Source of the DNA: Bryoerythrophyllum caledonicum
Taxonomy: Eukaryota > Streptophyta > Bryopsida > Pottiales > Pottiaceae
Direction: 5' to 3'
Length of the DNA stretch: 64,000 nucleotides
Assembly (NCBI GenBank): GCA_963971425.1
Contig: OZ020516.1
Span: 20,157,332 to 20,221,331, forward strand
Made by a program: the position numbers and the translations under genes. The notes under the pieces were generated by a model. The model was not told the origin of the DNA. It did no database searches and saw nothing but the letters and a program-made list of their open reading frames with translations. Below are positions 7,423 through 31,481 of the stretch, piece by piece. Numbering within the stretch: position 1 is the stretch's first letter; every line of letters begins with the position of its first letter.

Positions 7423-7432
7423 GGATTGTACT
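7423..7432. repeat. 10-bp target-site duplication, left copy (element B)
   Basis: GGATTGTACT directly precedes the CAG terminus of element B and is repeated exactly at 22104-22113. Confidence 0.92.
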
Positions 7433-7475
7433 CAGGATTGCTATCTTGTGAGCGGTGAGCGGCGAGCGGCGAGCG
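7433..7475 (+). repeat. Type-2 terminal inverted repeat, left end of element B
   Basis: CAGGATTGCTATCTTGTG is followed by the heptamers GGTGAGC, GGCGAGC and GGCGAGC. It pairs in inverted orientation with the type-1 end at 22055-22103 over the shared GCTATCTTGTGAGC core. Confidence 0.9.
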
Positions 7476-10400
7476 TTGAGTATTGAATTTAAAAAAAAAA
7501 TTCGTGGTGTTTTTTGTTGACTTTGAAAAGGGTCACCTATGGCCGTGGGTTCTATTTAGACTGTGTTGACATATAAAAAATACATAGAATTTTACGATGA
7601 CAATGTACTTCGACACATGGAAGTATGAGTACTTTAGGATTGATTGCAACATTTCAATTGAAATTGGAAGGGACGCTTATGGGTGAGGGTTTAGAGTTTA
7701 GGGTGTGGCCACATATCAATAGACTAAGAAATTCAATGGAAAAATTTAAAATTATATGGTTTAGGGTGGCAGGCAGAATTTAAGTGATACCTAGTTCATA
7801 CCCTTATAATACCTAGGTGATATCCATGTAATACCTAGGGTATAAAAATTAGATACCATGGAGATACCCGTTTTGTGTGAACCACTCTTAATTAAAATAT
7901 TCCTGTTCTTCGACAGCAATTGATTAAAAAATAGCAATGCCTAAGATATGAAGATTGTAAACTCAGAGGACATGTAACGAAGTTACAAAGGATATTTATA
8001 ATGAATCAAATATTTAATCCATGATAGAACGAAATATTCTCATCACGCATTAATGACATACGTTGTTTTTTGTTAGACATACGTGAAAAGAATGGGATAT
8101 TGACATGAATGAAGATGACCAATGTTGGGAAAATAATGAAGACAACCAACAAGTAGTACTGTGATAGTAAAACAAAACACAAACCAATGCAAAGGAATCA
8201 AGATCCTGTAGCGAAAAGGTCACTCGGGTCACTATCGTCCGAAGAACTATCACTACTCTCCGAGCCACTAACGTTGGCCTCCCCATCTATGAAAGGACAT
8301 GTACGGGACCTACGTGGGACTACCGTTTGCAGACGTGGAGGGGAATGTTGTGCTGCCATGCCGTCTGCAAGAGCAGCATCCCAGGGATTCAAATGGAATC
8401 GACGCGTAGGGCTCTTCACCTCCAATAACAAGGGAGAAAACACTCCAACATGAGACCGTGACAATGATGCCATCAACGACGAAGGCCGACTGCACAAATT
8501 AAAGTCCGGTTTAGAATTTAAGCATGTGTCAAACTAAAATTGTAAACCGCATTCCAAAACTAAAATCTATTAAGGGTAGGACTTACTCACAACGTCTCTT
8601 CGGGACGGTCTTCACCTCTCGCTCGTCGTCATCAATCTCCAAGGGGCGCTTGCGAGAGCCTTCCGCCACCACCGTTGGCGCAGCTGACTCGACCTCAATG
8701 GTATCAGGGATCAAAGGAAGGAGGATTTCTTCCACCAACTCTCGGTCCTCCTTTAGTACCAAAATGTGTCACTTAAGAGCCTTGCAAGCCTTAATAGACG
8801 CCCCTTCATGAAAAATAAAACATACGGTGTTAGCACATAAAATCAAGAGTATAACAGATGAAGTGGGTTGATATGAAACATTTCTAACCTGTAGATGTTG
8901 TGAGATCCAGAACAATGTCCTCCTCTTGAGTGCAGAGATCAATAAGAGCCTCCATGAGGTTTGTGGACTTCTCTCGCGCACCACGCCATGGTACGTCGCT
9001 ATCCGCCCTCATGGTCAGAGTCTCTTGAGTAATGAGATTGGTCATGTGACCATCTGAAGACAGCTGAATCCCATCTCGTTGCAGCTCCATCCTATCAAAG
9101 AAGGAGAATGGAACCGCAGGATCCAATTTCCTCATGAAGCACTTCACAAGGAAGCACTTGTGAGTGCGCCCAGGGTGGCCATCGTGGAATAGTCGTAGCC
9201 CGTTAATGGCAAACCACTTCGTCTCCTCGACAAAGCCCGCCCAATCGGCCCACGCTACAAGCTCATTGAAGATGAACTTCGAATCAGGGTAGAAAACTAT
9301 AAGTGGCGCTCCGTCACAAAGTAACGCCCCAACCATCTCAAAGGCCCTGTAAATCCAATGGGATTCTTTCTTACCTCCGTCTGATAACCGGGTTGGAAGC
9401 TTGTTCCAAATCGGTACAGCGATGCCACCGTCAATGTCGGGGACTGGTAAATCCTCTGGAATGTCGAATAGTACCATATCCGCCAAACCTAGAGTGCAAT
9501 CCAATGCCTCATGTCGCCAATGTCGCGAGCCCGAGTGCTCCTTCAAAAATAGGCGAAGCACCTTCCAAGCTGTGGGTTCGTCATCCTCCACAGCGACACT
9601 ATCAAACAAAGACATGATGGAGAGGGCACTCTCACACATGACCTTCATAGCAGTGGAAGACTGAGGAAGATCGAATATTGGTATCGAATACACCATCTGC
9701 GAGGGCTTCACAGCAAATGTTGAAGGGCGACTGCTAGCTGAGGGTGAAATGCCCATCATCAGTGTCACCGTTGGAGGGACTGCAAATCCTCCAAATCCTC
9801 TGAGTTGAGTAAACAACTTCTGAGGGCCTTCCTTCGCCACCAAAGCCGGGAACTCCTTGTACCTCTCTTTCTTGGAACTCTCCTTCTCTAGCCTAGCAGC
9901 CTCCCTCTCTTGTTCCTTAACTACTGCCTTTGCTACTTTCTCAGCAGCCTTGGCTTTGGCCTTCTCAGATTGCTCCTCAGTAACTGCCAAGGGAGCCGCC
10001 AACAAGGGAAGGGCGCTGCGAACTACAGGAGGAACCGCAATGGATTCGCAGGCCACTCGCAGCTGTACCTCGTCTCCAGGGGTTGGATCCACCTCCCGCA
10101 TCTCCAAGTACCACGGGCATTGGAGGAGGTGGTGCACAGAAAACCGACGCCTCTGTGAATCTGTGAAGATACACTTTGGAGCAGAAGTATCTATCCACTT
10201 TGTGAAACGGATGGGTAGATCTCCAACCACCAAGGATCCTACGGCCACGAGCACCCTCCAGAAATACCGCATCACAATCCGCTTCAGAGCCTTCTCGCAA
10301 CCGTCCTGCGCCATAAACTCCTCGCTCTTCGTGTAGGAGCCCTCCTTCCCGATCTGAGTAGAGAACACCTTCGTCCACAACGTCATGCTCTTTGCCTCAA

Positions 10401-12229
10401 TCCATTTCCCAATGGTGGGGATGGGATTCGGAAGCCCTTCAGTCTTGACGACAATGTTGTCCTCAAGGAGAATCTCTGCGTAGAGCTTCTCAGCCTCTTC
10501 TTCTAGCTGTGAAACGAAATTCTGATAGTTAGAAATTGATCATTGAAATATAGAAAAAAATGTGGTGAATGTCAAGAAAGATTGAACCTTACCCCAGCCC
10601 AGAACGTTGCCTTGTCAATCCAGCCACGAAGAACCTTATCCGACACTGGCGACGCGGGGAAGTTATACTCCATCCTGCTACCCTTGCTCATGTTCCACCA
10701 CCTGCTCCAGCGCGACTTGAACTTTGCAGCTACCCTAGCCGTGGCAATGAGCTGGAGTTTCTCGGGAGTCATCTCGGGCCGCATCTGGTAAACATCAAAG
10801 TGACGATTCACCTGCCTCACAAAATCAATCATTAGAGTGAAATTTATTTGGCTGGGAGTTAGAAATTCTGTATGGTAAGGATTATGTAAATTACACCCTC
10901 CCTACCTCTTTGAAGAAACCCTCCCCGTTAGCCCGGTTGGCAATTGCCAACAATCGAGTGAGCATGGTCTGGCAAGTCGTCTTCTTCTTTTGCACATCTT
11001 CAATGCAACGACTCACCAACTCAGGCCCACTTCCACGCTGATCTTCACTAACACTCGTGACCAAGTTGTCCTTAAATTTTTGAATCTGCTCCTCTTGAAC
11101 AACAATCAGGTCCCTCTGTGGTCAACATAAGCTCCAGATCAGTTTCAATATTTAGAACTGGGGTATGAATAAGAAATCATTGGCCAGTGCAACATGCACA
11201 AAGGGACCATAATGTACCTCATACATGAGCTTCACAAATGCTTCGAGAGTCATATGATACCATTTTCGTTGTCCCTTTTTTGACCACTCAAGGACACTAA
11301 CTTCATAATCCTCATCGCTGATGAGCCCCTTCAACTGCTCAAACTCTAAGAGGCCGAAATGTTGAACACGCTTTAGGTCGTGTGTCAGGTGTTGCACAAC
11401 GTGACCTGATTCTTTTTGCCTACGACAAAAGAACAATTCAGTTTCATTAAATAATATACCTAGAAATGTAAGCAATTGAAACAAACAAACATTGAAGTAA
11501 CTTAGTTTGTACCTGTTCAAGTCGGTCATCAGGTTGAGCAAGATGTGTCGGTTCTCGATAGTCGGCTCGATAACCACGGCTCTCACAGGCACGTGAAAGG
11601 ACACATCACATGGGTGAAGTTGAAAAATCATCTCGGTCCAAGCCATATGGCGATGATTGCCATGCCAGACGAAGAAGAACTTCTTTGAAAACGCATGGTA
11701 CTCCTCTCTGGTCTTCAATAGCTCCTCGAACTTCGAGTCCTCTTCAATCCAAAGCTCAGACCACGTTGACTTGTCTGCTGGTTGCACCCGCTTCTCCACA
11801 AGGGAGAAACTCTTCACAGACACATAAAAACTAGCAGAACCAGGCCGATACCCATTGACGAACTCCCCCTTCAATTTCTCCACGTCACTATGAAGAGGTA
11901 ATCTAACCTCAGTCATGGGCACCATCCGACAGAGCGGAATGGGGAGATCACTAGCAAAGGAGCAAATGCTGCTCTATAGGATGTCGTAAGAGGTCCCACG
12001 GATGGACCTCCGCAAACTTTGAAGTGTTGGAGCCAGCCCATGCTCATCAACAAGTTCAGTGGTGCGTGCTTCGTCCTCTATAATCTCAGCGTCCCCACGT
12101 GAAAAAGTCGTCGTAGATTCCATACTCTCAACCTGCAATATGAATGCATGAGAAACCAAATCAACCAATTGCATCTAGCTGAACTAGGAATTGGAATCGA
12201 ATCATGGAAAAACCAAGATTATGCAATTC

Positions 12230-12521
12230 CTGAACATCCACGAGACGAGCATTGCCTCACCGACCACCCCAGCCAGTACCAAGAAGATACTGATATTCTC
12301 CAGCACGAAGGACCGAGTACAGTCACCCCACCCTCCCCATACTTTCTCGTCATCCTCCCCACTCAGTCACTCACCTTCACCTCTCTCACTCCCCACCCTT
12401 TCCACCCAGTCCTCAGACTCTCCCCTCCTCACAGTCTAGCTCTCCCCAACTTTACTACGTCCTGGATCTTGATGGAAAGTACAGGAAATGAAATCATGAA
12501 CAAGAGCTGGAGACCAACAGT
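12230..12521. repeat. Partial unit of the intron III tandem repeat, left of the CACTA element
   Basis: C-rich sequence ending in a segment (about 12420-12521) that closely matches the ends of the units near 15280-15370 and 15770-15845. It is the left part of a repeat unit cut by the CACTA insertion. Confidence 0.7.
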
Positions 12522-14881
12522 CACTATAAGAAACCCGTGTTTTTTGTTATGTCCTTAATCATGTCAGCGTGTTTTTTTGATGTCTTGGAGCTAGCCAGTA
12601 ATGTCCCCGTGAACGTGAGGATGTCCACGCATCAATAATGAACAGTGGAGGTGGGAGGGTCCCGAAACGCGCGTGCGAAATAGGAGACGCGACGATGTCT
12701 CCAACAACGCGCCCGTCTCCGAGGACGTCATCGAGGACATCTTGGGTGACGCAAAACTGCCACGCTGGCAGCGGACAAGCGTTTCATCTGGGGTAAGAAT
12801 GTCGAAGTTACTGTTGTGCAAGGTAGAAAGCAGCCCAACGTTAAAAAAAACAACGAAACGGGCATCGGTCTGCAAGAGGAGAAAAAAAAGGCACGAGCCT
12901 TATAAAACTAGATTTTTTTTTTAAAAAATAAAAAAAATAAAGTATATAAAATTGAAGAATATTCTGATTATATTTATTAACTTTGATCCTCTGAAATTTT
13001 TGATTTGTCTACTTCGTATCAATATGGTTTCCAAAATAAAATTTAATTTTAAATATTAAAAATACAAAATATTAATTAATATTATAATAATATTTTATAA
13101 AAACTGATTATTCTGTAATTAAAGCGGACATATTAAATTCAATATTGTATATTGAAATATTAAATAATATTTATTAATTAATATAATATTAAATTACCAC
13201 TTTTCTACTAAAACCCGAATTATAAGGAATTTAGGGTGATTTTGTAAAGTCCTTGGTGGCTTACCCATGTGGACATATTATATATTTTGTAGTTTACAGC
13301 ACTTCATCTACATGGCAAACACAATTCCATGTCGGACAAGGTGACACGTCATTCTATGTATAGGTCCACGTCACTTGAGACATCCAATTGAATATGTCTC
13401 GAGTAACGTCTACATGTCTTTGAGGACATCCCACAGAGACGTCTCTGAAAACATCAGCAGTGTTTGGCAAAACATTGACATGTCCTGGAAAACATCGACA
13501 TGTCCTGGAAAACATCATCGTGTCTTGCAAAACATAACCATCAAGTAGGATGAATTTTGTCAAATTCATTGGATGAATAGAGGCGGCGAGGGTTAGCTGC
13601 TCGAGGCATAGTTAGGTCATGAGGCAGCTAGGGTTAGCTGCTGCAGCCATAGTTAGGTCATGAGACCTTTAAGTAGAATTTGAGGTTGCACAAAGCTCAC
13701 TTTGGCCTTCATTTCTCCAAGTAGTTAGAGTTTAGAATGTAGAGGTTGGAGTTTTAGAGTGTAGACTGAGTTTACAAGTTAGAATGTTAGAGTTTAGAGT
13801 GTAGAGGTTCGAGTTTTGAGTGTAGAGGAAAGAATTTAGAATATAGAGGTTAGAGTTTTGAGTGTAGAGGTTAGAGTTTAGAGTGTAGAGGTTAGAGGTG
13901 CAGTGTTGGACATGCAATGTGCTGTGAGCGACATATAGACGTGACCATGTTGTAGAAGACGTATGCCGCAGCACTTAGGAAACGGAAGGACGTCTTTTGA
14001 AACATCCCCATGTCTATGGAGACATATTTTAAATTGCATGTATATCATATTACCACATTTGCAAGTAGGCCAGTAAGCATGAATTTGGATGAATGTACAT
14101 GTTACATGTAAGATGAGGTATTCATGTCTTGTACTCATGTCTTGTACAACATACTCATGTCTTGTACAACATATTCATGTCTTGTACAACATCTCTCAAT
14201 GTCCCTCCAAAACACCATCACATACACAGCGTCAGCAATACCATACATCAGGGGATGTCACGTCAGACACGCATAAGTTCTTTGAGACGTCTGCGATGAC
14301 ACCCTCATTGCCGACGACCATGGGTCGGCAACGTATTGGAGGACGCGATCATGTCCATCACCACGTCCTCTAGGGCATGGCGATGTTCAACGAAATCAGC
14401 ATCAAAATCCAGGTAGCGTTGACGTAGACGTCGAGCAGGACATCTCCACGTCAATCCGGGACGTCTTAAAAAACACAGCCATGTTACCAATGACGTCCCC
14501 GCAAACACGAATTTGAAAAAAAAACCACGCAAATCTCTGCTGACGTGGCCTGCCACGTCACTCTTTCCCGGGTCCAGGTCAGACGCCACGTCAGATTCCA
14601 CGTCACCATTGGATTGGATGAAATTTCCGGCCATGTGGCACTGCCCGTCATCGTGCCGCTTAGGTGTCGTCTACGTGGCGCCCAGTTGGCACCATTTCCA
14701 GCCTCCCAAAATCTCCGAAAATCGTCCCTGTCGTAGGGATGTCCTCGCGTTTTTGGTGATGTCCCCACGCGTTATAGCGTGTTACACGCGTTGGTACGTT
14801 AGAGGGATGTAAATTCGGATGTCTACATGTCTCCTGGGACATGATTCAGGACGTGACAAAAAACACGGGTTTCTTATAGTG
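12522..14881. mobile_element. Non-autonomous CACTA (CMC) DNA transposon
   Basis: The ends are CACTATAAGAAACCCGTG and its inverted match finishing CTTATAGTG, about 28 bp of near-perfect terminal inverted repeat. The 3-bp target duplication AGT sits at 12519-12521 and 14882-14884. The uninterrupted site is visible in the next repeat unit near 15360-15380, where the same flanks join around a single AGT. No transposase is encoded in the 2.36 kb. Inside are subterminal short repeats rich in GACATGTC, a run of about 25-bp GTAGAGGTTAGAG-type repeats (13735-13900) and 22-bp CATGTCTTGTACAAC repeats (14110-14190). It is inserted in the intron between exons III and IV of the ParB-methyltransferase-like gene of B. 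Confidence 0.92.
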
Positions 14882-14934
14882 AGTCCATTTAAAAAAACAC
14901 ACGTGCGACGAAGAACAAATGAGCAGGGAGAAGA

Positions 14935-15030
14935 ATCTCGGTTTTTTACGAAAATCTGTGACCCCTGAAAATGGCTTTCGGATCCGAAAGCCATTTTCAG
15001 GGGTCACAGATTTTCGTAAAAAACCGAGAT
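14935..15030. repeat. 96-bp perfect palindrome centred on GGATCC
   Basis: Arms of 48 bp match exactly around the centre at 14982/14983. The stem would include ATCTCGG pairing with CCGAGAT at its base. The same structure recurs in this intron in other copies. Confidence 0.93.
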
Positions 15031-15429
15031 CTCCTCCCAGCTTAAGTGGACCATCGCTCGTGCTCTCTTCAAACCATACAGAATTGCCCAAAGCATGTGC
15101 ACGTGAATCATGCTCACACGAGGCAGCCCCTCCTCATGCAACAAAGACTGCAACGTACACAAGCCTTACCTCTCGGCACTCCCCACCGAACTCACATACC
15201 CCACCCACCCCACTCAGTCTCTCACGCACACCCCACTCACTCCCCTCCCTCTCACCCAGTCCTCACTCTCCCCTCCTCACAGTCTACCTCTCCCAACCCT
15301 TGCTACGTCCTGGATATTGATGGAAAGTACACGAAATGAAATCATGAACAAGAGCTGGAGACCAACAGTCCATGCAAAAAAACACACGCGCGACGAAGAA
15401 CAAATGAGCAGGGAGAAGAATCTCAAAAT

Positions 15430-15505
15430 TATACGAAAATCTGTGACCCCTGAAAATGGCTTTCGGATCCGAAAGCCATTTTCAGGGGTCATAGATTTTC
15501 GTAAA
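15430..15505. repeat. Second GGATCC-centred palindrome of copy B intron
   Basis: Centre at 15467/15468. The inner arms match except for one base (CATAG against CACAG). It lies in the second tandem unit. Confidence 0.88.
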
Positions 15506-17021
15506 AAACCGAGATCTCCTCCCAGCTTAAGTGGACCATCGCTCGCGCTCTCTTCATACCATACAGAATTGCCCAAAGCATGTGCACGTGAATGATGCTC
15601 ACACGAGCCAGCCCCTCCCCATGCAACAAAGACTGCAACGTACACAAGCTTCACCTCTCGGCACTCCCCACCGAACTCACATACCCCACCCACCCCACTC
15701 AGTCTCTCACGCACACCCCACTCACTCCCCTCCCTCTCACCCAGTCCTCACACTCTCCCCTCCTCACAGTCTACCTCTCCCAATCCTTGCTACGTCCTGG
15801 ATACTGATGGAAAGTACAGGAAATGAAATCATGAACAAGAGCTAAAAACCAAAGGATCTTATTGACGTACCTGAAGTGCATCCATTTTCTCCACTTCCGC
15901 CTCGGGTGCCCTCGAACTTCCTCGCTTATTCCCCCCGCTCACAGCCTGTAGTGACAGAGATTCTCACATGATTTAGAAATTCCATCACGAGGATGAACCG
16001 AAGCACTACACAGACATCACGATTAGGGTTCCTCAGACCTCAGTCACCTGTGAAGAACCGAACCCGACAAGCAGAGTCCGATGCCAAAACTATGCTCATG
16101 CTCACACGACTACCCGATTGGAGCTCATCTAAGAAGGTGCGAGGAAGCTCACCCTCTAGTGAATCACGATTCCCGACCTAATTCCCGAGGGCCCTTTGGC
16201 CGGTTTGGCGTTCAATTACCTAGAAATGATGAGCCAAATCCCATAAGGTGGCTCACGGCTAAATTATTCTTGTTCTCGGGAGCTTTATGTCCGGCTCAAA
16301 ACTCATTGACCATAGAGAATCAAGATGGGAAGAGTCGCTCATGTTAGCATTATAACTGGTACAGATTGTTGAAAGCATGATCGGATTGTGACATACCTGA
16401 TTTGTTGGGTCCCACCCTGGTTCCTGGAATTTGACCACGTGGTTTTCAACGCCTCTTCGATGAGCCGTTCCAGCCTTACCGGATGCCTTTGATGAGGATC
16501 CGTTTCCCACCTGTGTGGGTCATGATTGATATCCCAGGCTCCCATACTCTTCACTTGAGTCACTATTCTGGCAGTCAGACTGGCCTTTACTGCCTTCAGA
16601 TCCCTTATCTAATTGCAACGAGGTCTCAGCGGTACTAGATCTTTCATACATTTTCCCAAAGTTATCTTTTAAAGAGTACGCCTCTTCAAAATGCTCAGGA
16701 ATACTAACGACGGTGCAAGACTCCTGAATAATATTCCGTGACGCCAGAATCAGATGAACCTATTGACATTCTTCTATTCAGCCACATGAAATGAAAATCC
16801 CAAAACACTAATCATACCTTGATTCTGGATTGGACGGGCTGCAGTCCCTGGTGGATACTTGCCAAATCCCTAAATCGTTCGCCCGATTCAGATGATTCCA
16901 CTTCCTGGTTCTGAGCAGCCAGCAATGACTGATGTCTGCGCCGATCCTTTCGAGCCCGCGTCTGCTTCGGATTGGAGAAATTGGTACTTCGCTTCTTCCG
17001 GCCACCTATCTTAGTCATCAT

Positions 17022-17704
17022 CTACAAGATAGCCAAACCACTCATCCGCACTCTCATTCAACATCAGAGTCTCCCTATGAATCCAATCAATATAGTGCAA
17101 TATCAGTGATCACTGCAGTGCGGTGATAGAGCTCTTCTTCTACTCTATATTGCTTCCGTTTACACCAGAGACCTACTATTCAATATTAAGCTTTTATCAG
17201 ATATAGTTTTTTACACGCTGTCGCAAAGCCCTACAATAGCTTTCCCATATTAACCTCTGTTCCATCCGTCAAATACGGGGTACAATTTAAATTAAGCATC
17301 TTCATATTTGAAAAATGACGATCCGATAGATCTAAAGTTGTATTAATTTCGTGGCTACAACAAGACAATTAACAATATTGGTAAATGGTAATTCAGCTCA
17401 CGACTTTCATATTCCTAATTTGTTTCTCAGATTAACTTGTGGCATTGTCCACTGAAGCCGCCAACAGTCTGGAAAGGAGTAATCCTCTATAGATTAATGT
17501 ATTTCTCCCGTAATTTCACTCTATCGTAATATATAGATTTCCGCCGTATGTTGCCCTTTATAAGATAATATATTTCCGCTATAATCAAGTCTTTACCAGT
17601 TCAGTATTTGAACGAGGGTGGCAAGCTAGTTCAATCTCTCTTTCGCAATTCAGTTGTCAATGCACCCCACCCTCACTTGACTCCGCTTCTGATAGTCTTT
17701 GTGC
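17022..17704. promoter_or_regulatory. Shared upstream region between divergent genes of element B
   Basis: 683 bp separate the start of the ParB-methyltransferase-like gene (minus) from the transposase ATG (plus). Element E has a closely similar 675-bp region (62884-63558). A TATAAG at 17559-17564 lies about 140 bp before the transposase ATG and is a candidate TATA box, with a similar TATAAG at the matching place in E. No clear box is assigned for the minus-strand gene. Confidence 0.5.
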
Positions 17705-20700
17705 ATGGCGTCTCTTACTTCTCATCAAGGCGGCGTTCCACTTGTCGTGCCCATTGGCGACAATGGCACAGTTTGTATCTCCGAGTCATTGCTATGTGTT
17801 CATTTTGGTTATCGGACTGGCACAGTCCACATTGAACAAGAGGTCTATGATAGCGTAGGTAATCATGAGCAGTCCATTTATCAAGTGAAAGACAGTGACG
17901 CGGTTGGATATTTTTGGAGCTTGTGTCGTGGTTCATTCAAAGTATTTGGTGTTACAGATGTTCAATTCGCTGCTCATACATCAGTAGCCGTCATGACTCC
18001 TCTGGGCGATTTTGGTGATACTGAACTCGTGCCCGGTTTAGGTACTAGGTCTAACCCAAGCGTCCATATTCTTAGCGATACAGAGGAAGATGAACTATCT
18101 GATGTGAACCTTGCTGAGTCAAAGATCCCATGGACCTCGTCTCATAAATTAGCTACTCGTACTAGTACTACCCCAGTTCCATCATATGCTCAAGCGTCTC
18201 CGTCTTATTCTTCAGGGAAGCCCCAGTTTATCCTGGCTCGCGCAACGTCAGAAGCATACTAATTCATGTCCGGCATACCTGTAATAGGAAAGGGTCTAGG
18301 TCTGAGTTGTCTAGAATTGATATCGATAGTTTTGATTTGAAACAGGTTAAATATTTGCCTCCAAAGTATGATGGGGACGTAGTATTTGAACTTCCACCAC
18401 TCCCGGAGGGTATTCCCCCCCAGTACGGAGGGGGCCTAGATGGGATGAGTAAACATCACGATGGTCACACATGGTGCAAGACCATGACTACAAATATCAA
18501 GAACGATTTTGGTCTTACGTACCGGAAATCTGTATGTACGGGGCATCTATAGTGCCCTAACATCACTTGTGATTATAAGTCACGAAACGGTGGGCGCTTG
18601 AATCAAACCGAGTGGAGCGGGTTCGCGTTCATTCCATTTTCAGTGAATGGAGCACCATCCGAGAAATCTACGCTCTCATGTAAGGTTTGCCAAACCCCTC
18701 CAATTTGTCTTGCGCTTTGTGATGCATGTATATACTATGTGACATCTATCGATCCCGATCGGACACGCGCTGCAATTCATTTGGGTCATCATCTTCATCC
18801 TATCTCGAAAGGTGTAGATCAAGATGCCATGGACGTCATGCACAATTGCGTAGCAAAAGAAGTCCAACGTACGCCCAAGGCTACTAATTCAGCAATTGTC
18901 ATGGCTGCGAGTAAGAATTTCCTCTCGGACTACCTGATCCGTCCGCAATCGAACTTGCCCAACCTTGAAGAAGCATCTTTGGATGCTGTCCTTGATCAAT
19001 TCGAGACTCTTTCGTCTCCGAATATACGGAATCTAGTGTCCACGTGCAAGAAGTTCTATAGTGGTGGGAAGGGTATAATGGACAACATCATAGAGCTCAA
19101 AGGAGTCGTCGAAATTCGTGTTCATCCACGAAAACAAGTTTCCCGGCCAATCTCAAGGTAAAGTATTCCTTTTCAAAATGTCTGTCGACCGATGTGGAAG
19201 TGGGGTAGACCTTGTTAGGCGTATGCAACCTGGGAATGACCTTGAAGATTGTTGGATGATGTTTGATCATGTCAAACGAGTCAAGGATTGGACTACCATG
19301 GCATGTCATGTGTACGACAGGAAGTATTGTAAGGTAATGACAATTGCCATGTGCGATATGCAATCCGAGGATGCTCAAGCGCAGGAGTTGTTCTGGGAGA
19401 ATCTAAATGATACAATGAGACAACATGGCCTAGAAGACGTTAACTTCAAAGGCTTCATGGCTGACAGTGCTGGTGCGAATTGGCATGCCATTCGACGAGT
19501 TTATGGCAGCGGTGACAAGGACAAGCCCATGGATAATAGGGAACGCACATGCTTATTTCATTGGACAAAGTGTCTTCAGCGTGCGACCTCTAGAAGTATT
19601 CTTCTAGGCTTCCAAGAGCAACACATTGCCCTACGCAAAATCTGGAAAAATGCGAACACCCATGACGAGGCTGAAGCTCAGTACAATGTCATTCCAGTGT
19701 GGTGGTTGTGCTCTGGTGCCACTACCGAAATCGGACGTCGTGCTCTCGAGGATTGGATGGCATTCTGGCACTTCCGTTATCGACAATGGGGCGGCGCAAT
19801 GCAGCTTGTAAGTGGTCTTCATGCTCCATATAGTTTACATGCGATTAGATTCTTAAAGAGTAATTAGCCTATATCTAATGAGGATTGTTGCGTTTCCTCA
19901 AGATCTCACTCTAGACGAGAGGGTTGACATGCCTCCCTGCAACCTTGCCGAAACAATCCACAACCGTTGGCTCCAACAATCCGGAAACACAATGACGTGT
20001 CTATACGCAGCAACCGTAGACGACCTTATCCGTGCTTTCATGCAGATTACTTCGTATTGAGCATGGTTGTAGGGCGGCGCGTCCGGAAAAGGTCCGGACA
20101 GAGGTACGCTTCGGTTGCAGTCCGCACAACGTTTGGGTGATCCTAAACTCATAGCTGATGTTGTTAGGAACTTCCCCGGAGCTAAGGACTTACTAACCAG
20201 GACATGCGGCTTAGAAGGTGCGGAGGTTTTCGGATCCACAAAGCGCAAGCTTGACATGCCACCCGGGTCGTCCCACAATTAGCACAGGTCTGATACGGTG
20301 AACTATTCAATTCCCCGTGATGGTAAAAGGGTGACTCGGGCTCGCATCGAAGAGGCCCTTGGCGGACACGACTCTGGTGTCCAATATACAACCTCCGTTC
20401 TTGAGACGGACTGTGATCCGTCTAAGTGGCACATTGCTCGGCTCCCCAAAAAGTGTGCTCGAAAATGCCAAGCATTGTAGGCTCACACTGGTGAGCCCTG
20501 CAACACCAAAGTTGCACGTGGAAGTCATGGAACTCCTGCCCCCACCTATTCGGGTATGAAGAAGGATTACAGATCGCCCCGTAATGTTACTGCGGAGTTC
20601 TGGTTTTATCCAGATGATGTAGGCCGCTGTGTAAAGGGGTCGAAGAAAGCATTTGTGATGGACTGGCCATCAGTTCCAATATCGTGGCCTGTGAAACTTG

Positions 20701-21269
20701 GCACTAATTTGACTGTGCATGAGGTTTTAACATTGGAGGAAGCAGGTTTCCAATTGCAACAGCGTGGAGCTCTTTCACCACAAAGACAATTCAACGTGTC
20801 TATGGACATGCCTCTTCCGCATTCTCACTTCCCCATTCCAGCAAATCCCAATTCTCACCACAGCTTTCGGAATGGCTACACAATTCGTAGAACAACAGAT
20901 GCTCCCACAATTGACCAACGCAACAAGTGGTCAAGCGCAGCTCTTATGAATAACTGCTACGTCTCGAATCTGTTTGCCATACCGTATCCGGGATGGGGAT
21001 GCGTTATCACTCTTGACACGGGGAAGGACAAGTCCTATTGCGTCACGTTTACGGACCTCCTAGGATGTTCATGCCCAGATTTTTTGAAGATACAATCCGA
21101 AGCGTTGGGAAAGAAGGGGCAATGGAAGTATTGCAAGCATGTGTATTACATCTTACGTTACCTATGTAAGATGGACTACAAAGAGGACCTGTTCATGCAT
21201 GCTCCAAGCTACAGCTTTAACGAAGTTATGCGCATTCTCGAGCTTGCTAACATCACTAAACGAGCGTGA
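17705..21269 (+). pseudogene. MULE-type transposase with zinc-binding and SWIM domains, copy B
   Basis: Starts M-A-S-L-T-S, identical to the copy in element E. After an N-terminal region of no known family comes a Cys/His region (C-D-Y ... C-x-x-C ... I-H-L-G-H-H-L-H) resembling the WRKY-GCM1 zinc fold that precedes many MULE transposases. The MULE core follows, with G-F-M-A-D-S-A-G-A-N-W and C-L-F-H-W-T-K-C. An intron follows (donor GTAAGT at 19810, acceptor near 19894). The C-terminus has the SWIM pattern C-S-C-P-D-F ... Y-C-K-H-V-Y. Stops and at least two frame changes break it, including a stop before the first zinc ligand near 18550 and one extra base near 19100. It would cut and join the element ends in the nucleus. 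The frame also changes between the N-terminal part and the zinc region at the same place as in copy C, suggesting an unrecognised intron. Confidence 0.85.
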
Positions 21270-22054
21270 GGAAGGCGTTCAAGTCGTCGCAACCCGCAAT
21301 TGATTAATATTTCTTGGCTGCTCAGGTGAAGCATCTTCTATACATGCTCAGTTCATACCCGATTTCATGACTGTAGTTGATGGTCATGAATTCAATTAAT
21401 ATATTATTATATTTTGTTATATTATTCTGAGCAGTAGAATCCCGTATTTAGCGTGATCCACACTTTGAAGGTGATGATTTTATACATAAGTCATTAGAAA
21501 TGGGGACTGCCAATATTGTGGGAATTGTCTTAGCGATTTGTGCAAATGATATGCATGGAACGCAAAGGTGATTTTCATGCATTTCGTAGTTAACAGTTAA
21601 TACCCATGTATTTCGAATGTCTCTCCGACCCAGTACCAGTGAAATATCCACTTAATACCTAGGTGATACCTGTTGTATCTGAAGATCAATATTATCATAA
21701 ATTAGCAAATACTGACCAAAATTGTCTGCTTCGTATCATATTCTACCAGGACGCCTAAACCCCATACCTAAGTAAATATGTGCTTTACATTCTAATATGG
21801 CACTTTACAAATGTAGGACCTTCAGAGAAAAAAATGGTGACATACCTTTAAACTAAAACAGGGAACTCTAAAAGACCGAAATAAAGAAAAAAAACACGCA
21901 ATTTTGCAGTATACCACGGCTATAGGGTATTTTCTAAAATTAGACATTTTTGAAAAATTTGTCATCAAATTTTGATAATCTGCTGAAAAAACCACGAATT
22001 TCACCTTTTTCGCAAAAAAATGACAAAAAAATTCCAAATTTTAGGATTTTTTGT
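21270..22054. other. 3' flank and type-1 subterminal region of element B
   Basis: AT-rich and non-coding. Carries the inverted subterminal motif CCACGGCTATAGG at 21914-21926. The same sequence is found inverted at 23889-24657 in element C and near 35525-35750 in element D, which ties these ends to one family. Confidence 0.6.
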
Positions 22055-22103
22055 GCTCACCGCTCGCCGCTCGCTGCTCACCGCTCACAAGATAGCGTCG
22101 CTG
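22055..22103 (-). repeat. Type-1 terminal inverted repeat, right end of element B
   Basis: Five heptamers (GCTCACC, GCTCGCC, GCTCGCT, GCTCACC, GCTCACA) lead into AGATAGCGTCGCTG. Reverse-complemented it begins CAGCGACGCTATCTTGTG. Confidence 0.9.
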
Positions 22104-22113
22104 GGATTGTACT
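22104..22113. repeat. 10-bp target-site duplication, right copy (element B)
   Basis: GGATTGTACT, identical to 7423-7432. Confidence 0.92.
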
Positions 22114-22770: not shown

Positions 22771-23840
22771 TGAACCTAATGAATGTTGCATTATCGAGGA
22801 TTTGTTATAATCCACAATAATAGATGCCTAAAGGTTGCCAAAAAGTATATATTACTAGAAAAAATGAACAAGAAACGTGTTGTGAATAGCTTGGAGGAAC
22901 TTCATAACATTGCAAGTATCACATAAAAAATCCTCAAATAACAAGTCTAGAATTAGGTACAAAAAGGTGTCTAAAGTTCTCAGATGTTGTCTACTATGAT
23001 TGATTGTTGTCATCTTCTTCAACCTCCCCAATACCTTTTCAAATTTCATAATAATATGAACATCAAAATTTTCAAAATTGCCCATGATGAAAAGGAAAAA
23101 CATTTGAGCATGATGTTGAGCATTAAGTAACCGCACAAAAAGTGATCATCTACATCACCCAAATCCGTGTTGGGGTCAAAATCAACGACGAGACCGTGTG
23201 AGCGACTAGAGAGTGTTTGCGGTGAGCGGTGAGCGGAAAAGAAAGACCTAAAATTAACTCCTTTTTTTAGATATTTTTTTCTTCTAAATTTTGATTTTGA
23301 TAAGTAGATTTTCTAGTTTAGACTATTTAAATTTGGAAAATATATGGACCTATTCCTGTGGAACATTTTACTCTTTCCCCCTTATGACAAATGTAAATGA
23401 TTTTTGAATCATTGGAATTTCAAAGATAAATTGTAAAATTTGGAAAAACACGGGTCCCATTATCCTGGAAAATGTCACAAATTCTCCCTTTTGCAGATAT
23501 AAATGATAATCCTTTTTGTCTCCAGGTTACTCTGTTAGGTGATAAATTGAGGCGGGGTTGTGAAAGTTGGAACAAATGAAACGGGAGACATATACACAAC
23601 GTGACATTTATGATTTGTGAAGTGGGATAAACATTGAATCTATAGATATATGATTCAAAAGAAACATGCAAACATGATACAAGGGAAAAAACAAACACAA
23701 CAATAAACACGCAATTAAACAATTTTGCCCTCACCAAATAAAAGTGCACTTGGGTACAACGGCGGCCATTGCGAACAAAAATGTCAAAATTGCAAAAAAG
23801 AAAGGTTTTCAAAGAAAAAAATTGAGCTTGTGCACCAATA
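22771..23840. other. Spacer between the Helitron and element C
   Basis: AT-rich, no supported gene. A short run of heptamers (GGTGAGC repeated, 23219-23236) resembles the terminal arrays of the MULE family but lacks the GCTATCTTG core, so it may be a worn terminus fragment. Confidence 0.4.
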
Positions 23841-23889
23841 CAGCAACGCTATCTTGTGAGTGGTGAGCAGCGAGCGACAAGTTGTGAGC
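23841..23889 (+). repeat. Type-1 terminal inverted repeat, left end of element C
   Basis: CAGCAACGCTATCTTGTG is followed by worn heptamers (GGTGAGC, AGCGAGC, GACAAGT, TGTGAGC) and ATAAAAAATCC, as at the left end of element D. The subterminal motif CCTATAGCCGTGG lies at 24016-24028. Confidence 0.85.
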
Positions 23890-24657
23890 ATAAAAAATCC
23901 TAAAATTTGGAATTTTTTGTCAACTTTTTGAGAAAAAAGTGAAATCTGAGGTTCTTTCAGCCGATTATCAAGTTTTGGTGGCATTTTTTCAAAAACATCT
24001 AATTTAAGACATTACCCTATAGCCGTGGTAACTTGCGAAACTGGGTGTTTTTCCTTTCTTTCGGCCTTTTAGAGTTCCCTGCTTTAGTGTAAGGGTGTGT
24101 CATTTTGGTTTTTTTTGGAACCCCTACATTTGTAAATTGCCATATTAGTTTACAAAGCAGATATTTACTTAGATTCAAGACAACGTCGTGGTAGAATATC
24201 ATACGAAGCGGACAATTTTGGACAGTACTTGCTGATTTATGATATTGTTGATCTTTGGATACAATGGGTATCACCTAGGTATTAAGTGGATATTTCACTG
24301 GTATTAAACCGGTACCACATTCGGTTTACATGGGTATTAACTTTTAACTACAAATTGCACGGAAATCACCTTCGCATTCTATGCATATCAACGGTACAAA
24401 TGTTTAATTTTTTTTGCACAATATTGGCAGTTTCCATTTCTAATGACTTGGGTATAAAATCGTCCACTTCAAACTGTAGAACATGTTGAGTACGGGAATC
24501 TACTGCTCAGAATAATATAACGAAATATATTAATTGAACTCATGACCATCAACTATAGTCATGAAATCAATGACGGACTGAGCATGTATACATGATGCTT
24601 CACTTGAGCAGCCTAGAAACATAGATACTTCTGATACATACGACTTCAACTCCTTCC

Positions 24658-25312
24658 TCACGCTCGTTTGGTGATGCTAGCAAGCTCGAGAATGCGCATA
24701 ACTTCGTTAAAGCTGTAGCTTGGAGCATGCATGAACAAGTCCTCTTTGTAGTCCATCTTACATAGGTAACGTAAGATGTAATACACATGTTTGCAATACT
24801 TCCATTGCCCCTTCTTTTCCAACGCTTTGGATTGCATCTTCAAAAAATCAAGGCATGAACATCCTAAGAGGTCTGTAAACGTGACGCAATAGGACTTGTC
24901 CTTTCCCGTGTCATTTAAGAGTGATAACGCATCCCCATCCCCAATACGGTATGGCAAACAGGTTCAAGACGTAGCAATTATTCATAAGAGTTGCGCTTAA
25001 CCACTTGTTGCGTTGGTCAATTGTGGGAGCATCTGTTGTTCGACGAATTGTGTAGCCATTCCGAAAGCTGTGGTGAGAATTGGGATTTGCTGGAATGGGG
25101 AAGTGAGAATGCGGAAGAGGCATGTCCATAGACACGTTGAATTGTCTTTGTGGTGAAAGAGCTCCACACTGTTGCAATTGGAAACCTGCTTCCTCCAAAG
25201 CTAAAACCTCATGCACAGTTAAATTTGTGTCAAGTTTCACAGGCCACGATATTGGAATTGTTGGCCAATCCACCACAAATGCTTTCTTCGACCCCTTTTC
25301 ACAGCGGCCTAC
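24658..25312 (-). pseudogene. C-terminal fragment of MULE transposase (SWIM finger)
   Basis: The minus-strand frame matches the last 210 or so residues of the copy B transposase very closely, including G-C-S-C-L-D-F ... Y-C-K-H-V-Y, the SWIM C-x-C ... C-x-H pattern, and the ending R-I-L-E-L-A. The 5' side stops at a join near 25310, where the sequence switches to the ParB exon. A small frame break lies near 24910-24930. Next to it, at 23841, is the type-1 end that normally follows this gene. Confidence 0.85.
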
Positions 25313-25639
25313 ATCGTCTGGTATCCCTTCACAAACTCCGCCTTCAACTTCTCCACGTCGGTCCTCAAAGGAAGTCGCACCTCTGTCATGTGGATCATGC
25401 AGCAAAGGGGAATGAGGAGCTCCTCACTTGAAGGATAAATCGAGCTCCGAAGAAACTCGGAAGTTGTCCCCTTGATGGACTTTCGCAACGCTTGCTTAGT
25501 CGATTCCATTCTTGACTCGGCCTCCAAATCAATCACCAGAGGCTCCACCAGTTGAATTTCTATGTCCATGCCATCACCCATGGACATAGAGCCGTGCTCA
25601 ACTTCTGCCATCTAAAACAAGGTAACGCACAAATTTAGA

Positions 25640-26110
25640 GGGTCACATTTTCACTCTGAAATATTCTGAAATTTGCAAGCAACATGCACACGAGCATCAT
25701 GAACTTAGGTTCCTCACTCTAAGACCTCACCGAATCAAGGCACAAACATATGAAGCATGACCTTGCAACATGAGAAGAAAAAAAAAACCAATAAGGAAAC
25801 ATGAATTGGGCAAGGAGAAAAACAAAAATTCGGAGGACCTACCCTCGGATCCGATGGTCACATTTACACTCACAGAAATTCTGAAATTTTCAAGCAGCAT
25901 GCACGCGAGCATCCTGAGCTTAGGTTCCTCACTCTAAGACCAGTTCAAATCAAGGCACAAACATATGAAGCATGGCCATGCAACATAAGAAGAAATAAAA
26001 AACCAAGAAGGAACCAGGAATTGGGCAAGGAGAAAAACAAAAATTCGGAGGACTGAACCTACCCTCGGATCCGAGGGTCTTATTTACACTCACAGAAATT
26101 ATGAAATTCA
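25640..26110. repeat. Tandem repeat about 200 bp with GGATCC palindrome, copy C intron
   Basis: A unit with ACATGCACACGAGCATC and TCACTCTAAGACC recurs two to three times. The last unit holds the 18-bp perfect palindrome ACCCTCGGATCCGAGGGT at 26061-26078. A near copy lies at about 25849. It corresponds in position to the palindrome intron of the other copies. Confidence 0.8.
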
Positions 26111-27063
26111 AAAGCAGCATGCACACGAGTATTAAATGAGTGCGTATCGACTATTTCTAATGCACCGTTGTGTACAAAAATGACTAACCATAATGATGCA
26201 GTATATCCACATTCTCTAACTCTAGCGCAATATAATGTTTTCAGCGAGATGTAAGTGATTGCCGCACATCCTTGTGCGCTCTCAACCATATAAACGTTAC
26301 CCATGACCGGAAACTCTTGTATAAACAACAATCTAAACCAACACACAAATAGAGGATGGAGATTAGAGTTTCGAACGTGAACGGATCGCAAGCTTCTGCC
26401 ATGTGCAGCTCCTTCCTCGTCCAACGCAGCTCCCTCCATAACTCTCCGACTACCCGCACGCACTGCGCCCTGAACGAGAACCACCAGAAACCACAAAGTA
26501 AAAAATGTGCAACAATATGAAATAGTCGCGAAACACAAGAAGCTCACACGCATATACCGAATTGAAGTTTCTCCACATATGAAAGCACAAGTCCTGCATT
26601 TGCAGTTTTTCACCTTAAACATGTGCCAAAAAAGTCTTCGAATATTCCCTCGGATTTTGAGGTCATCATGACATTTCCAGAACGTCGGCAGATTCTGAGG
26701 ATTTTTGTTCAAGTAAGTTTTTTTGCTTATCGCTCAACCGTTGCAATAACCTACATCCCATCGTGTGTGATTTGCATCGTTGAATTATAATGCATGAAGT
26801 GAATGCATGAAATTATAATGCATCAATTAAATGCATAAAATGCATATATTGGAAGTAGTCTTAAGCAATGTTAATTAATCCTAATATATATAAGATTGCC
26901 ATTATATATAGCGTTTGTTAAGATGGTGTCAAGTTCAATAAGTATTAGTTGAATGACTAGAATTTTGATTCAATGCAAAAGCTAGATGTTTCAGACATAC
27001 ACTACATCGAGATCCAAAGATTTTACTCTGTAGATAAATCCTCACAAACGATGGAATGGTAAT
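26111..27063. other. Intron-like sequence of copy C
   Basis: No exon is supported. A long minus-strand open frame (26080-26712) has no family resemblance and I do not call it. From about 26740 the sequence is AT-rich. Confidence 0.4.
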
Positions 27064-27771
27064 TTAGTGTCGTGCATTGTAACTTATAGTACGATACATA
27101 ATCTCAAACAACTTGCAAGTGGATGCCATGAAACAAACCTGAGTCAATGGGGTCCATCCTAGATTCATCGGTGCTCCAGTGTGCTCGTCCGCGCTTTCAT
27201 AATGGTTCTCTGCTTGAGTATCTGATGTCCGAGAGGGTGAACCATTTATGATCCTTGAGGAGTTTGGTGGATGTCCCCGGCTCTCGGAAGCTTCTGTGGT
27301 CTCCATACTTTCACATTCGAACTCCTTAACTTTTTCGACTGCAACCTTACCCCTTTGCAACGAGCAATCTGAGGCACTGGATGTTTGACATTAACTCACC
27401 ATTTTGGCTTGTAAAGACTCTTCCTCCTCACTATCCTCATGAGAATGCTGAAATGGTTTGGTCACCTACACAACAAAAGAAGAAACAAAGTCATGCAATA
27501 ATACCATTGAATTGAACTAAGTTGTGATATTCAAAATCATTTGGGGAGACCATTCAAGACATACATGAACCCTTGACTGGATTGGGTTAGCTCCTTCGTG
27601 GATACTAGTCAAATCCCTAAATCGCTCTGCCCATTCTAATTCCTCTACTTCCGTGTTTTGAGAAGCTAATAGTGCCCTTTGCTCTCTACGTTTCTTCTGT
27701 GCGCGCACTTGCTTAGGATTTGAAAACTTGGTAGTTCTTCTACTCTGTCTAGCATTCTTAGTCATCCTCAA

Positions 27772-28644
27772 ACAACAAAGCTAAACTGACTCCTTCTCTA
27801 TGCCTAAACATCACTCTCTCACAGAGAAAACCACAAATATAATGACGTTTCTACTATGAAGCAATGTTGACTAAGAATGCCCTTTCTTGTTATCTCTCGT
27901 ACATGGTGGTGATTGTCTTGGCTATATTATTGGATGTTGTCAGCCTTTAATTTGAATCGGAACTACTATCTATTTATGATATGCCCAAAATATTCTTTCC
28001 TCCCGCCATTCTAAACCCGGTATTTTTTGTGTATAGGGTTGGATTATTGAATAACAACAACACGCACATCATAATTAGAATGGGCGATCCTGCAGCTTGA
28101 GGTGGCACATATAGCAATATTCTATTTCGCACCTAAGTTTTGGAAGCACCTCATCGTCGCAAACTCTGGACTATTGACCTACTCTGAGCACCCACATTTG
28201 GCACGGCCTATTCCAAACACCTATTTAAACTAATGTTGTCAGCCTTAACTAAACTTGAAATTAGTTCTAGGTTGTTCCATTACTATAATCTCCCACTGTT
28301 GTCACAAGCCTCTTATCTTTGGGTATTTACTGATAATTTAGCGGAAAACCACTGTACACATCGAATACCAACTGTATGATACACTCCGCCTTAGTTGGAT
28401 CAACCTTTTAAATTTTATTATAAATTTCAAAACGTTTCCAAATTCATTGAGGCGCCGTCAGGGAGCGTGCATGGGCATCTGACAGAAGGCATTAAATAAC
28501 CTCAGCCATTTGTGAGCACGATGCATTTCCATAATTAGACGTCTTCACTCAGATGTTTAATCAAGCAGTTGATTTCGTTCAATATACAACCGCAATCATA
28601 ATCCGCACGCATTTCATATCCTATGTTGTGGAGAGCTCTTGACT
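27772..28644. promoter_or_regulatory. Divergent upstream region of element C
   Basis: Lies between exon I of the ParB-methyltransferase-like gene (minus) and the transposase ATG at 28645 (plus), as in elements B and E. It is longer and diverged from those, so it is placed by position rather than by sequence motifs. Confidence 0.4.
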
Positions 28645-29163
28645 ATGACATCACTCACATCTCAAAATGGTGGTGTTCAGCTTGTCATCTCCGTTGGTGA
28701 AAATGGCACTCTTAATGTCCAGGAGGGTAGTCCTCAGTAGTCGCTTTGGGTTTAGAATTGGAACCGTTCATGTTCAACAAGAGGTGTTTGATAGCTCAGG
28801 AGTATTAGAACATTCTATATACCAAGTGAAAGATCGAGACGATTTAGGCTTTCTATGAAATCTGTGTCGTGGTTCTTTTAAAGTATATGGTGTTAGGGAT
28901 ACTCAAATGTCTGCTAATGCGTCGTGTGCCGTGATGATCCCTCCTACCGATTCCGGTGATACGATACTCGTGCCTGGTTTGGGCACACGGTCTAACCCAA
29001 GCGTGCAACTTCTAAGTGACACAGACAAGGACCTCTCTGATGTGAATTTGGGGGAATCATGGTACACCTTTAAGTCACAAGACTCTACCTGTCCCGATGC
29101 GTCTATCCATACCCCAAGTAGGTCGCACATGTCTCCGTCTCTTTCCTTTAGAAAACCACCTGT

Positions 29164-29168
29164 CCATC
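29164..29168. repeat. 5-bp target-site duplication, left copy
   Basis: CCATC, repeated at 34226-34230. Removing the intervening 5,057 bp plus one copy restores continuity with transposase-like sequence. Confidence 0.7.
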
Positions 29169-29499
29169 TGTTGTACCACGAATTTTCAAAACTTTTTAGT
29201 TAGTCGATTTAGGGGGATTAACTTACATCAAACAGTTAGTGGGAAGGATAGAGATATACCAAGTGTAAATCTTTAGGTAGTATTAGTATAGGAAAAATAA
29301 AGAACAACTAGGAATCGTTAAGATAGTTAAGTAGTGGCCCGAGAACACTTCTTAAAATTAGGCCATTCCAAAGATTCTAGTTCGTAAACACTAGCTCTCG
29401 AGTGGGAAGGCCTACCAAGCCTCCGACCCATGCCAAGATTCGCACCAAACCCGAGTAAACCCAAGGACCGGGTGATACCGTGTTGAAGAGCTCAGGGAG

Positions 29500-30545
29500 G
29501 ACATGGTTGACTTAATACGAGGGAGCTCTAGCCAAGACAACCGAGGGGAGGCTGTGCGCGGACCTTTCCGACAGGCTGTACACGGAAACGCGTGGACCAG
29601 CGCCTACAAGGCCGCAAGGAAGAGCAGGGTGAGGACCTCTCTCAAAGCGGTGTGCGAACCTCTCATAAACAGGGCGCGGATCTCTCACAAGCAGTGTGCG
29701 AACCTCTCTCAAAGCTGTGCGCGGACCTCTCAAGGCGACCAAGGCAAACAAGACGACCAAGGCAAGGGAGAGGAGCATGACCAACTAGCGAGGGAGAGGA
29801 GCAGGATCAGCTAGCGAGGAAGAGGAACGGACCAGCTAGCGAGGAAGAGCAGGGTGCGGAACTCTCTTAAGCAGGGTGCGGACCTCTCCTAAACAGGGTG
29901 CGGACCTCTCACAAGCAGTGTGCGGACCTCTCACAAGTAGTGCGTGGACCTCTCAAGGCGACCAAGGCGAACAAGACGACCAAGGCGAGGGAGAGGAGCA
30001 TGACCTGCTAGTGAGGGAGAGGAGCAGGATCAGTTAGCGAGGAAGAGGAACGGACCAACTAGCGAGGAAGAGCAGGGTGCGGACCTCTCATAAACAGGGT
30101 GCGGACCTCTCATAAACAGGGTGCGGACCTCTCATAAATAGGGTGCGGACCTCTCATAAACAGGGTGCGGACCTCTCACAAGCAGTGCGTGGACCTTTCA
30201 AGGCGACCAAGGCGAACAAGACGACCAAGGCGAGGGAAAGGAGCATGACCTGCTAGCGAGGAAGAGCAGGGTGAGGACCTCTCTCAAAGCGGTGTGCGGA
30301 CCTCTCTCAAAGCGATGCGCGGACCTCTCTCAAAGCTGTGCGCGGACCTCTCAAGGCGACCCAGGCGAACAAGACGACCAAGGCAAGGGAGAGGAGCAGG
30401 ACCAGCTAGCGAGGAAGAGCAGGGTGCGGACCTCTCATAAACAGGGTGTGGACCTCTCAAGGCGACCAAGGCGAACAAGACGACCAAGGCGAGGGAGAGG
30501 AGCAGGATCAACTAGCGAGGAAGAGGAACGGACTAGCTAACAAGA
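29500..30545 (+). repeat. Minisatellite block (GTGCGGACCTCTC units)
   Basis: Roughly 22-bp units with GGTGCGGACCTCTCATAAAC alternate with longer blocks holding AAGGCGACCAAGGCGAACAA and AGCGAGGAAGAG. The higher-order block repeats about three times. Reading frames inside follow from the repeat and are not called. Confidence 0.85.
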
Positions 30546-30597
30546 CCACCAAGACGAGGAAGAAGGGCAGGCAACGATCTTCCAGGCTCGAATTAGC

Positions 30598-31269: not shown

Positions 31270-31481
31270 TGAGAGGGAGGGAGCAGCGCATCTCAGTCAG
31301 AAGAGGAGGCACCACCACCTCCCAAGCGACAGAGGCAACACCAAGGTGGAGCTCCTTCCACACGGACCCCCGCAGCTATTCGAGCAGCGGCCACCGGTTG
31401 AGCTCTACTTGGAGGTAAGACTTACATGGCCTCCGAGTTGGTAGAAGCTCTCCGGGGGTATGTGGACGATGTGGAGAGGAC

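Follow-up and report, generated by a model that had tools for sequence, protein, structure and literature searches.

A Degenerate MULE-Like Element of Bryoerythrophyllum caledonicum Carrying a Methyltransferase-Like Partner Gene Beside Its Transposase

The Element and Its Two Genes

Considered here is a stretch of 64,000 nucleotides, hereafter the window, from Bryoerythrophyllum caledonicum (Bryopsida; Pottiales; Pottiaceae), that is, positions 20,157,332 to 20,221,331 of the forward strand of contig OZ020516.1 (assembly GCA_963971425.1). Within it, the unit under study is a MULE-like transposon spanning window positions 7433–22103. This unit is designated element B, and its relatives in the window are designated A, C, D, and E. 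These letters are our own, with those of a preliminary description of the same DNA being undefined and possibly different. Element B consists of two divergent genes, a putative transposase on the plus strand and, on the minus strand, a second large gene which is here described as the partner.

The ends of B are exact, with tips CAGGATTGCTATCTTGTG on the left and, reversed, CAGCGACGCTATCTTGTG on the right, and they are flanked on both sides by a perfect 10-bp duplication, GGATTGTACT. An inverted repeat, 7440–7480 against 22056–22096, is 95% identical over 41 bp. A bounded unit with ends and a perfect duplication, as previously described, is thus what is found. MULEs display target-site duplications of 8–11 bp and, in most members, terminal inverted repeats; duplications of 10 bp that are perfect are seen here in both B and C, and the repeats of B are as just described. 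The start codons of the two genes of B are ~690 bp apart, and the interval separating them is presumably a bidirectional promoter. The boundaries and overall layout are as follows:

7423–7432, no strand: target-site duplication, left copy (GGATTGTACT)
7433–7480, plus strand: left terminal inverted repeat, with GAGCGGY heptamers
17019–17704, no strand: interval between start codons, presumed bidirectional promoter
22056–22103, minus strand: right terminal inverted repeat
22104–22113, no strand: target-site duplication, right copy (GGATTGTACT)

The partner consists of nine coding exons found between 17018 and 8198 and encodes ~1315 aa. Its exon borders in B are AG/GT, with phases that agree. Seven of the nine exons have counterparts in A, and the longest of these is preceded there by a GG acceptor. 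A second large gene beside the transposase, as had been claimed, is therefore borne out, but with nine rather than ten coding exons:

16818–17018, minus strand: partner coding exon 1, which encodes a basic N-terminus (MTKIGGRKKRS...) and is conserved in B, D, and E
16397–16723, minus strand: partner coding exon 2, one in-frame stop
11513–12174, minus strand: partner coding exon 3, ParB-like motif (FFVWHGNHRHMAW), one in-frame stop
11218–11419, minus strand: partner coding exon 4
10906–11115, minus strand: partner coding exon 5
10593–10811, minus strand: partner coding exon 6
8889–10506, minus strand: partner coding exon 7, Lys/Glu-rich stretch and methyltransferase-like domain
8587–8803, minus strand: partner coding exon 8, continuing the motif I region, one in-frame stop
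8198–8489, minus strand: partner coding exon 9, acidic serine-rich tail, ending in TGA
8887–9489, minus strand: methyltransferase-like stretch, bounded by the motif IV position (FDIPED) and motif I (VLDLTTSTG)

The transposase gene runs from 17705 to 21269 and has at least three coding blocks, with some of its intron borders being approximate:

17705–18180, plus strand: transposase first coding exon, 3' border approximate
18244–19807, plus strand: transposase second coding block, containing the DDE-like region, one stop, and one frameshift, with its 5' border approximate
19902–21269, plus strand: transposase last coding exon, containing four in-frame stops and ending in TGA, with its 5' border approximate
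21066–21140, plus strand: SWIM-type zinc-finger motif CSCPDF...WKYCKH, identified by eye

MULE transposases are of the DDE type and frequently bear a zinc finger, whether SWIM or another. Two signatures can be recognized by eye in this gene, a SWIM-type CxC...CxH motif near the C-terminus and a DDE-like D...C..H. Pfam matches to Transposase_mut, on the other hand, are weak, with E values of 0.025 and 0.17 that fall below the cut-off; there is no Transposase_mut match in Pfam for D's copy of the gene, nor any MULE or SWIM match in Pfam for the transposase. Designation as a SWIM-finger MULE transposase, as made in the preliminary description, hence agrees with the signatures seen but goes further than Pfam does. 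A piece of the transposase, when searched for in viral contigs, found no match.

Related Copies and Their Ends

All counts of copies that follow pertain to the 64-kb window. Element A has its left end at 6682 and continues past the left window edge, while E starts at 56481 and continues past the right. Element D, its left part lost, extends from ~25322 to 44725 or 44726, and within its transposase gene sits C (35496–42174), which possesses its own 10-bp duplication, GTTCGGCGAG. A right-end fragment is also present, reversed, at 23841–25321. No paired duplication is seen within the window for A, D, or E.

The partner is present, whether whole, truncated, or as fragments, in all five of A through E. 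The right-end fragment, which does not reach the partner region, is excluded from this count. In B the partner is nearly whole; in A exons 3–9 are seen; in C it is without its methyltransferase part; in D it consists of fragments of exons 1–3; and in E it has suffered an internal deletion. The side on which the partner lies is the same in all of these copies. Its occurrence in A, C, D, and E had been described previously, and is upheld (for D, as fragments) by sequence comparison, with rows of less than 40 aa left out of the B–E comparison, and self-matches along with tblastx rows outside of 22103–56000 left out of the window-wide one. Transposase sequence is found in B, in D, in E (the start only), in degenerate form in C, and in the right-end fragment; A does not extend that far. 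A 42-bp terminus is common to elements A and B, with 97.6% identity, though their partner proteins are only 54% identical.

The terminal heptamer pattern, GAGCGGYGAGCGG, if up to two mismatches are allowed, is matched 29 times in the window (overlaps counted) versus an expected 0.68. By our own count 22 of these 29 matches are at seven mapped element ends, two mark an internal tip (36546), and five are elsewhere. Lone matches to the terminal heptamer are seen at 23217–23236, between elements, and these are perhaps a remnant of another end.

The junction at 25321/25322 is abrupt, with the reversed right end (23841–25321) there meeting a partner exon of D. The structure has been rearranged, such that a right end lies at either side and no duplication pairs the two. 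One composite element, bounded by these outward, right-type ends (23841 and ~44726), was considered, but by eye their flanks are without a matching 10-bp duplication and the idea was rejected.

Selection on the Partner

Stop codons and gapped codons were left out of all determinations of the ratio of nonsynonymous to synonymous change (dN/dS). Alignment of the A and B partners over 1133 codons gives a protein identity of 53.7%, proportions of synonymous and nonsynonymous differences (pS and pN) of 0.74 and 0.31, and a dN/dS of 0.125, a rough value in that dS is infinite in 7 of 14 windows, i.e., synonymous change is near saturation. An excess of synonymous change is nonetheless plain from this alignment. 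For the transposase the B–D comparison yields a dN/dS of 0.088 over 977 codons. Two partner exons compared between B and E yield 0.31 (220 codons) and 0.16 (538 codons), and a crude count for the first partner exon, B versus D, yields 0.12 over 66 codons.

These values show the partner to have been under purifying selection comparable with that on the transposase, and hence to have long been a selected gene of the element. Indeed, because all five copies carry it, because they possess the same family of ends, and because of this selection, the partner looks like a core element gene rather than a chance capture. On the same grounds the contention of the preliminary description, that the partner belongs to the element, is retained.

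The Methyltransferase-Like Part

Pfam PF01555 matches the C-terminal part of the partner with an E value of 3.7e-5 in A (24.2 bits versus a cut-off of 26.7) and 1.6e-3 in B. There is also a match to phrog_3008 (E 1.9e-5) and one in the PDB to DpnA (E 0.027 only), while in NCBIfam no methyltransferase match was found for the partner. Alignment using hhalign against four annotated Fusobacterium phage methyltransferases, themselves aligned, gives a probability of 92 with an E value of 5.9e-7 over 52 columns, as run without a negative control. With tblastn against phages the A partner finds 18 records, every one of them over the C-terminal methyltransferase stretch. The methyltransferase piece of A has no pattern match in viral contigs and five in prokaryote genome contigs, none of the latter confirmed. 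Homology of the C-terminal part to N6_N4 methyltransferases is supported by these comparisons, if below the Pfam cut-off.

Motif IV comes first in the partner and motif I close to its C-terminus, an order that agrees with the beta class of these enzymes. In active amino-methyltransferases motif IV is [DNS]PP[YFW] and motif I is FxGxG. Neither is seen here. The putative motif IV position instead is DVPED in A and E and DIPED in B, that is, D[IV]PED in all three of the copies that cover the site (C is without the region), an assignment that is our own, by order and context, with the Pfam match starting after that position. Motif I, associated with S-adenosylmethionine, is T[TA]STG in A, B, and E (DLT[TA]STG), with the first glycine of FxGxG missing. 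Identity between A and B is elevated in this region, at 65.7% from motif IV to motif I and at 69.7% over the 33 codons after, versus 53.7% overall. These odd motifs are more likely old and selected, i.e., ancestral rather than products of decay, because they are common to two elements, A and B, whose synonymous sites mostly differ, and because they belong to the region that, of those compared, is best conserved. Since it is in that best conserved region that D[IV]PED replaces [DNS]PP[YFW], the methyltransferase-like domain may be non-catalytic or altered in its catalysis.

The ParB-Like Part

Partner exon 3 possesses a GNHRH box that resembles the ParB box (DG-x-HR type) and which is present in all four of the aligned copies, these being A, B, C, and E; the D fragment does not reach it. 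When hhalign was used against E. coli YbdM, the best columns fell on the DGFHRH box of that protein, but not significantly so, and against three ParB-type proteins, taken together as well as singly, probabilities were less than 1% each. For these comparisons, ParB_N was found in one plasmid among three records searched and was not found in one phage, with YbdM obtained by accession. No ParB profile was matched in Pfam (A and B whole, and the E exon), in NCBIfam (A and E exons), in PHROGs (A whole and the C exon), or in the PDB. The ParB-like exon of E, when compared with phages and plasmids, has weak and unrelated matches only.

The earlier characterization of the partner as both ParB- and methyltransferase-like consequently fares differently for its two halves, with the second supported, below cut-off, and the first present at the level of a motif. 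Neither gene has any Pfam match above cut-off, the families that had been proposed for them (ParBc, N6_N4_Mtase, MULE, and SWIM) included, with PF01555 and Transposase_mut being sub-threshold matches.

Decay and Possible Past Methylation

The partner of B has three in-frame stops, and the B transposase has five in the blocks tested plus a frameshift relative to D. There are three stops in the A partner and seven in the D transposase, while C and E display both stops and deletions. Several in-frame stops are at glutamine positions, which prompted consideration of a reassigned code (TAA and TAG as glutamine); other copies, however, have TAG as well as TGA at tryptophan and TAA at arginine, and that possibility was rejected.

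When B, E, and C are compared with one another along 2.5 kb of the partner gene, C-to-T changes, on either strand, are seen at 32 of 378 CG sites, 26 of 265 CHG sites, and 63 of 1499 CHH sites, with transitions at 73 of 2924 A or T sites. The excess at CG plus CHG over CHH (Fisher p 2e-5) suggests past methylation of these copies in both of the former contexts, which is a plant-like pattern.

Insertions, Repeats, and Other Features

The long intron of the partner in B contains a nested insertion:

12522–14881, no strand: CACTA-like insertion with a 3-bp duplication, AGT

This insertion, ~2.4 kb in length, has tips CACTATAAG and 45-bp inverted ends that are 93% alike. Distances within E fit its absence from that copy, and minus the insertion the length of B would be ~12.3 kb. 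Common to the long partner intron of B, C, and E are repeated blocks (spacing of 485 and 534 bp) at 14882–15852, 37966–38803, and 61313–61429. Within D, GC-rich tandem repeats are found at 29617–30492 and 33858–33998, in the region separating two transposase exons. A 215-bp tandem repeat, of 2.3 copies, is found at 25638–26129. An open reading frame at 55701–56141 resembles by eye a fragment of non-LTR (long terminal repeat) reverse transcriptase, with no Pfam match. Rfam provided zero matches, and the remaining open reading frames matched no Pfam family above cut-off.

What the Partner May Do

On balance it is probable that B is a decayed member of a MULE family with two genes, the partner being a selected accessory protein that combines a ParB-like motif with a beta-class amino-methyltransferase-like domain and which acts upon element DNA. 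The partner, that is, would bind the element's own DNA, perhaps at the GAGCGGY end repeats, and thereby would help the element to escape silencing or instead to be recognized for transposition. A core accessory protein acting on the element's own DNA is the interpretation that is best supported.

A number of points weigh against that interpretation. The counts of copies are those of one window rather than of a genome, and A and E each present a single end within it. In A, the 1.4 kb that lie upstream of partner exon 3 did not reveal exons 1–2, which may be either off of the window or absent. Every copy in the window is broken, so that current activity is not supported by these copies. Both PF01555 scores fall below the curated cut-off, and ParB is a matter of motif resemblance, significant by no method used. 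Structure prediction, as given by the predicted local distance difference test (pLDDT), reached 32 for the longest exon (7 rows) and 33 for the ParB-like exon (4 sequences), and neither model was used. A crude dN/dS count of 0.50, over 146 codons, was obtained for the first transposase exon in B versus E, and the limits given above for the A–B ratio and for the hhalign run belong here as well. The right end of C, furthermore, has zero GAGCGGYGAGCGG matches, and while the terminal repeats are where the partner would bind, those repeats may serve the transposase alone.

If the partner were an active DNA amino-methyltransferase, marking element DNA with N6A or N4C, then the N6_N4 homology, the beta-class motif order, and the low pN of a conserved region would be as expected, and such activity has been proposed in print for similar algal proteins (PMC12477816, in the part available). 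DVPED or DIPED at motif IV and DLT[TA]STG at motif I are not what such an enzyme should display, however, and these states, being common to A and B, are likelier ancestral. Active methylation is accordingly rated as rather unlikely, although it overlaps with the interpretation preferred here and the two likelihoods are not exclusive. To the same modest degree one may credit the partner with being a second transposition protein, end-binding and MURB-like, rather than an epigenetic factor: other MULEs carry additional open reading frames, one with a DNA-binding role (PMC6446971, in the part available), the terminal heptamers could be the sites, and the catalytic motifs are degenerate, but it would be unusual for a protein of that kind to employ a methyltransferase-like domain. 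A role in binding or altered catalysis is at least as likely as classical N6A or N4C methylation, because the usual catalytic signature appears to be conservedly lacking. With active methylation and transposition assistance each allotted their share, an anti-silencing or marking role through such binding or altered catalysis would take up most of what likelihood is left. More specifically, and more doubtfully still, the partner could be a former bacterial-type DNA-marking enzyme which, having lost its catalytic signature, now would serve as a sequence reader, binding to the element's terminal heptamers so as to block or erase CG/CHG silencing by the host. This would be a function like that of VANC, but derived from a methyltransferase scaffold.

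Origins outside of the element appear far less probable. MULEs tend to take up fragments of host genes (PMC6446971, in the part available), and the partner could be such a capture, Pack-MULE-like and functionless so far as the element is concerned. A Pack-MULE fragment is not conserved as part of its element, whereas this gene is conserved across elements (dN/dS 0.125) and is carried, on the same side, by five of the five related elements in the window, despite deep divergence and with dN/dS at ~0.13; capture is hence disfavored, and is quite improbable. That all of the copies seen lie within 64 kb could alternatively point to local duplication, with the partner belonging to a neighboring host gene family. 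Yet the 10-bp duplication of B differs from that of C, and C is inside D's transposase gene, which contradicts this for B and C and leaves local duplication as the least probable of the origins considered, indeed barely credible.

Relation to Known Systems

MuDR of maize (mudrA/mudrB), like B, is a two-gene MULE with a SWIM transposase. Unlike the partner, MURB is not methyltransferase-like, and the arrangement of genes in MuDR differs. Giant EnSpm elements with accessory genes reportedly exist in red algae, as mentioned in the source on Ectocarpus Sola1. Accessory proteins that combine ParB with a DNA methyltransferase have been described from algal transposons of other superfamilies, Ectocarpus Sola1-1_Ec32 among them, and as a class from red and green algae as well (PMC12477816, in the part available). 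The Ectocarpus protein, encoded by a giant DNA transposon, has a ParB-like and an amino-methyltransferase domain and is 1104 aa in length versus ~1315 aa here (same source, in the part available), but the superfamily there is Sola1 and here MULE, and the likeness noted is one of description. The arrangement of this algal class, i.e., a partner inside of a DNA transposon and on the strand opposite to that of the transposase, is present in B, with the ParB part statistically unsupported. The two arrangements are strikingly alike.

Among MULEs themselves, a 2019 survey lists extra genes or domains that include PMD, SET, OTU, FAR1, and VANB/VANC, among others (PMC6446971, in the part available), and the word 'methyltransferase' is absent from its main text. 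The VANDAL/Hiun MULEs resemble B in carrying extra genes, with VANC an anti-silencing factor, but in the available part of that survey VANC is not called ParB- or methyltransferase-like, which by description sets it apart from the partner. Retrotransposons with incorporated DNA methyltransferases, from dinoflagellates and charophytes, are like B in being transposons that encode DNA methylation genes, for which self-methylation has been proposed (PMC5890265, in the part available). Those enzymes, however, are C5-cytosine methyltransferases, capable of de novo CG methylation (same source, in the part available), whereas the protein of B is amino-methyltransferase-like, with degenerate motifs, and is found in a DNA transposon.

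Within the open-access literature searched, no ParB-methyltransferase gene is reported from a MULE, nor does ParB occur in the available part of PMC12695648. The statement in the preliminary description that no such pairing was known consequently is to be narrowed to MULEs, within the literature searched, in light of those algal elements of other superfamilies (PMC12477816, in the part available). This type of accessory gene, that is, is already known from other transposons, and what is new is its MULE setting along with the conserved, non-canonical motifs. As far as literature searches show, the ParB-methyltransferase type of accessory gene is thereby extended to MULEs. Because the most conserved part of the gene here is without the usual catalytic residues, there is raised as well the testable question of whether such proteins are methyltransferases or instead are anti-silencing or end-binding factors. 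The extension to MULEs suggests, in addition, that one type of gene may have been recruited repeatedly by unrelated giant DNA transposons.

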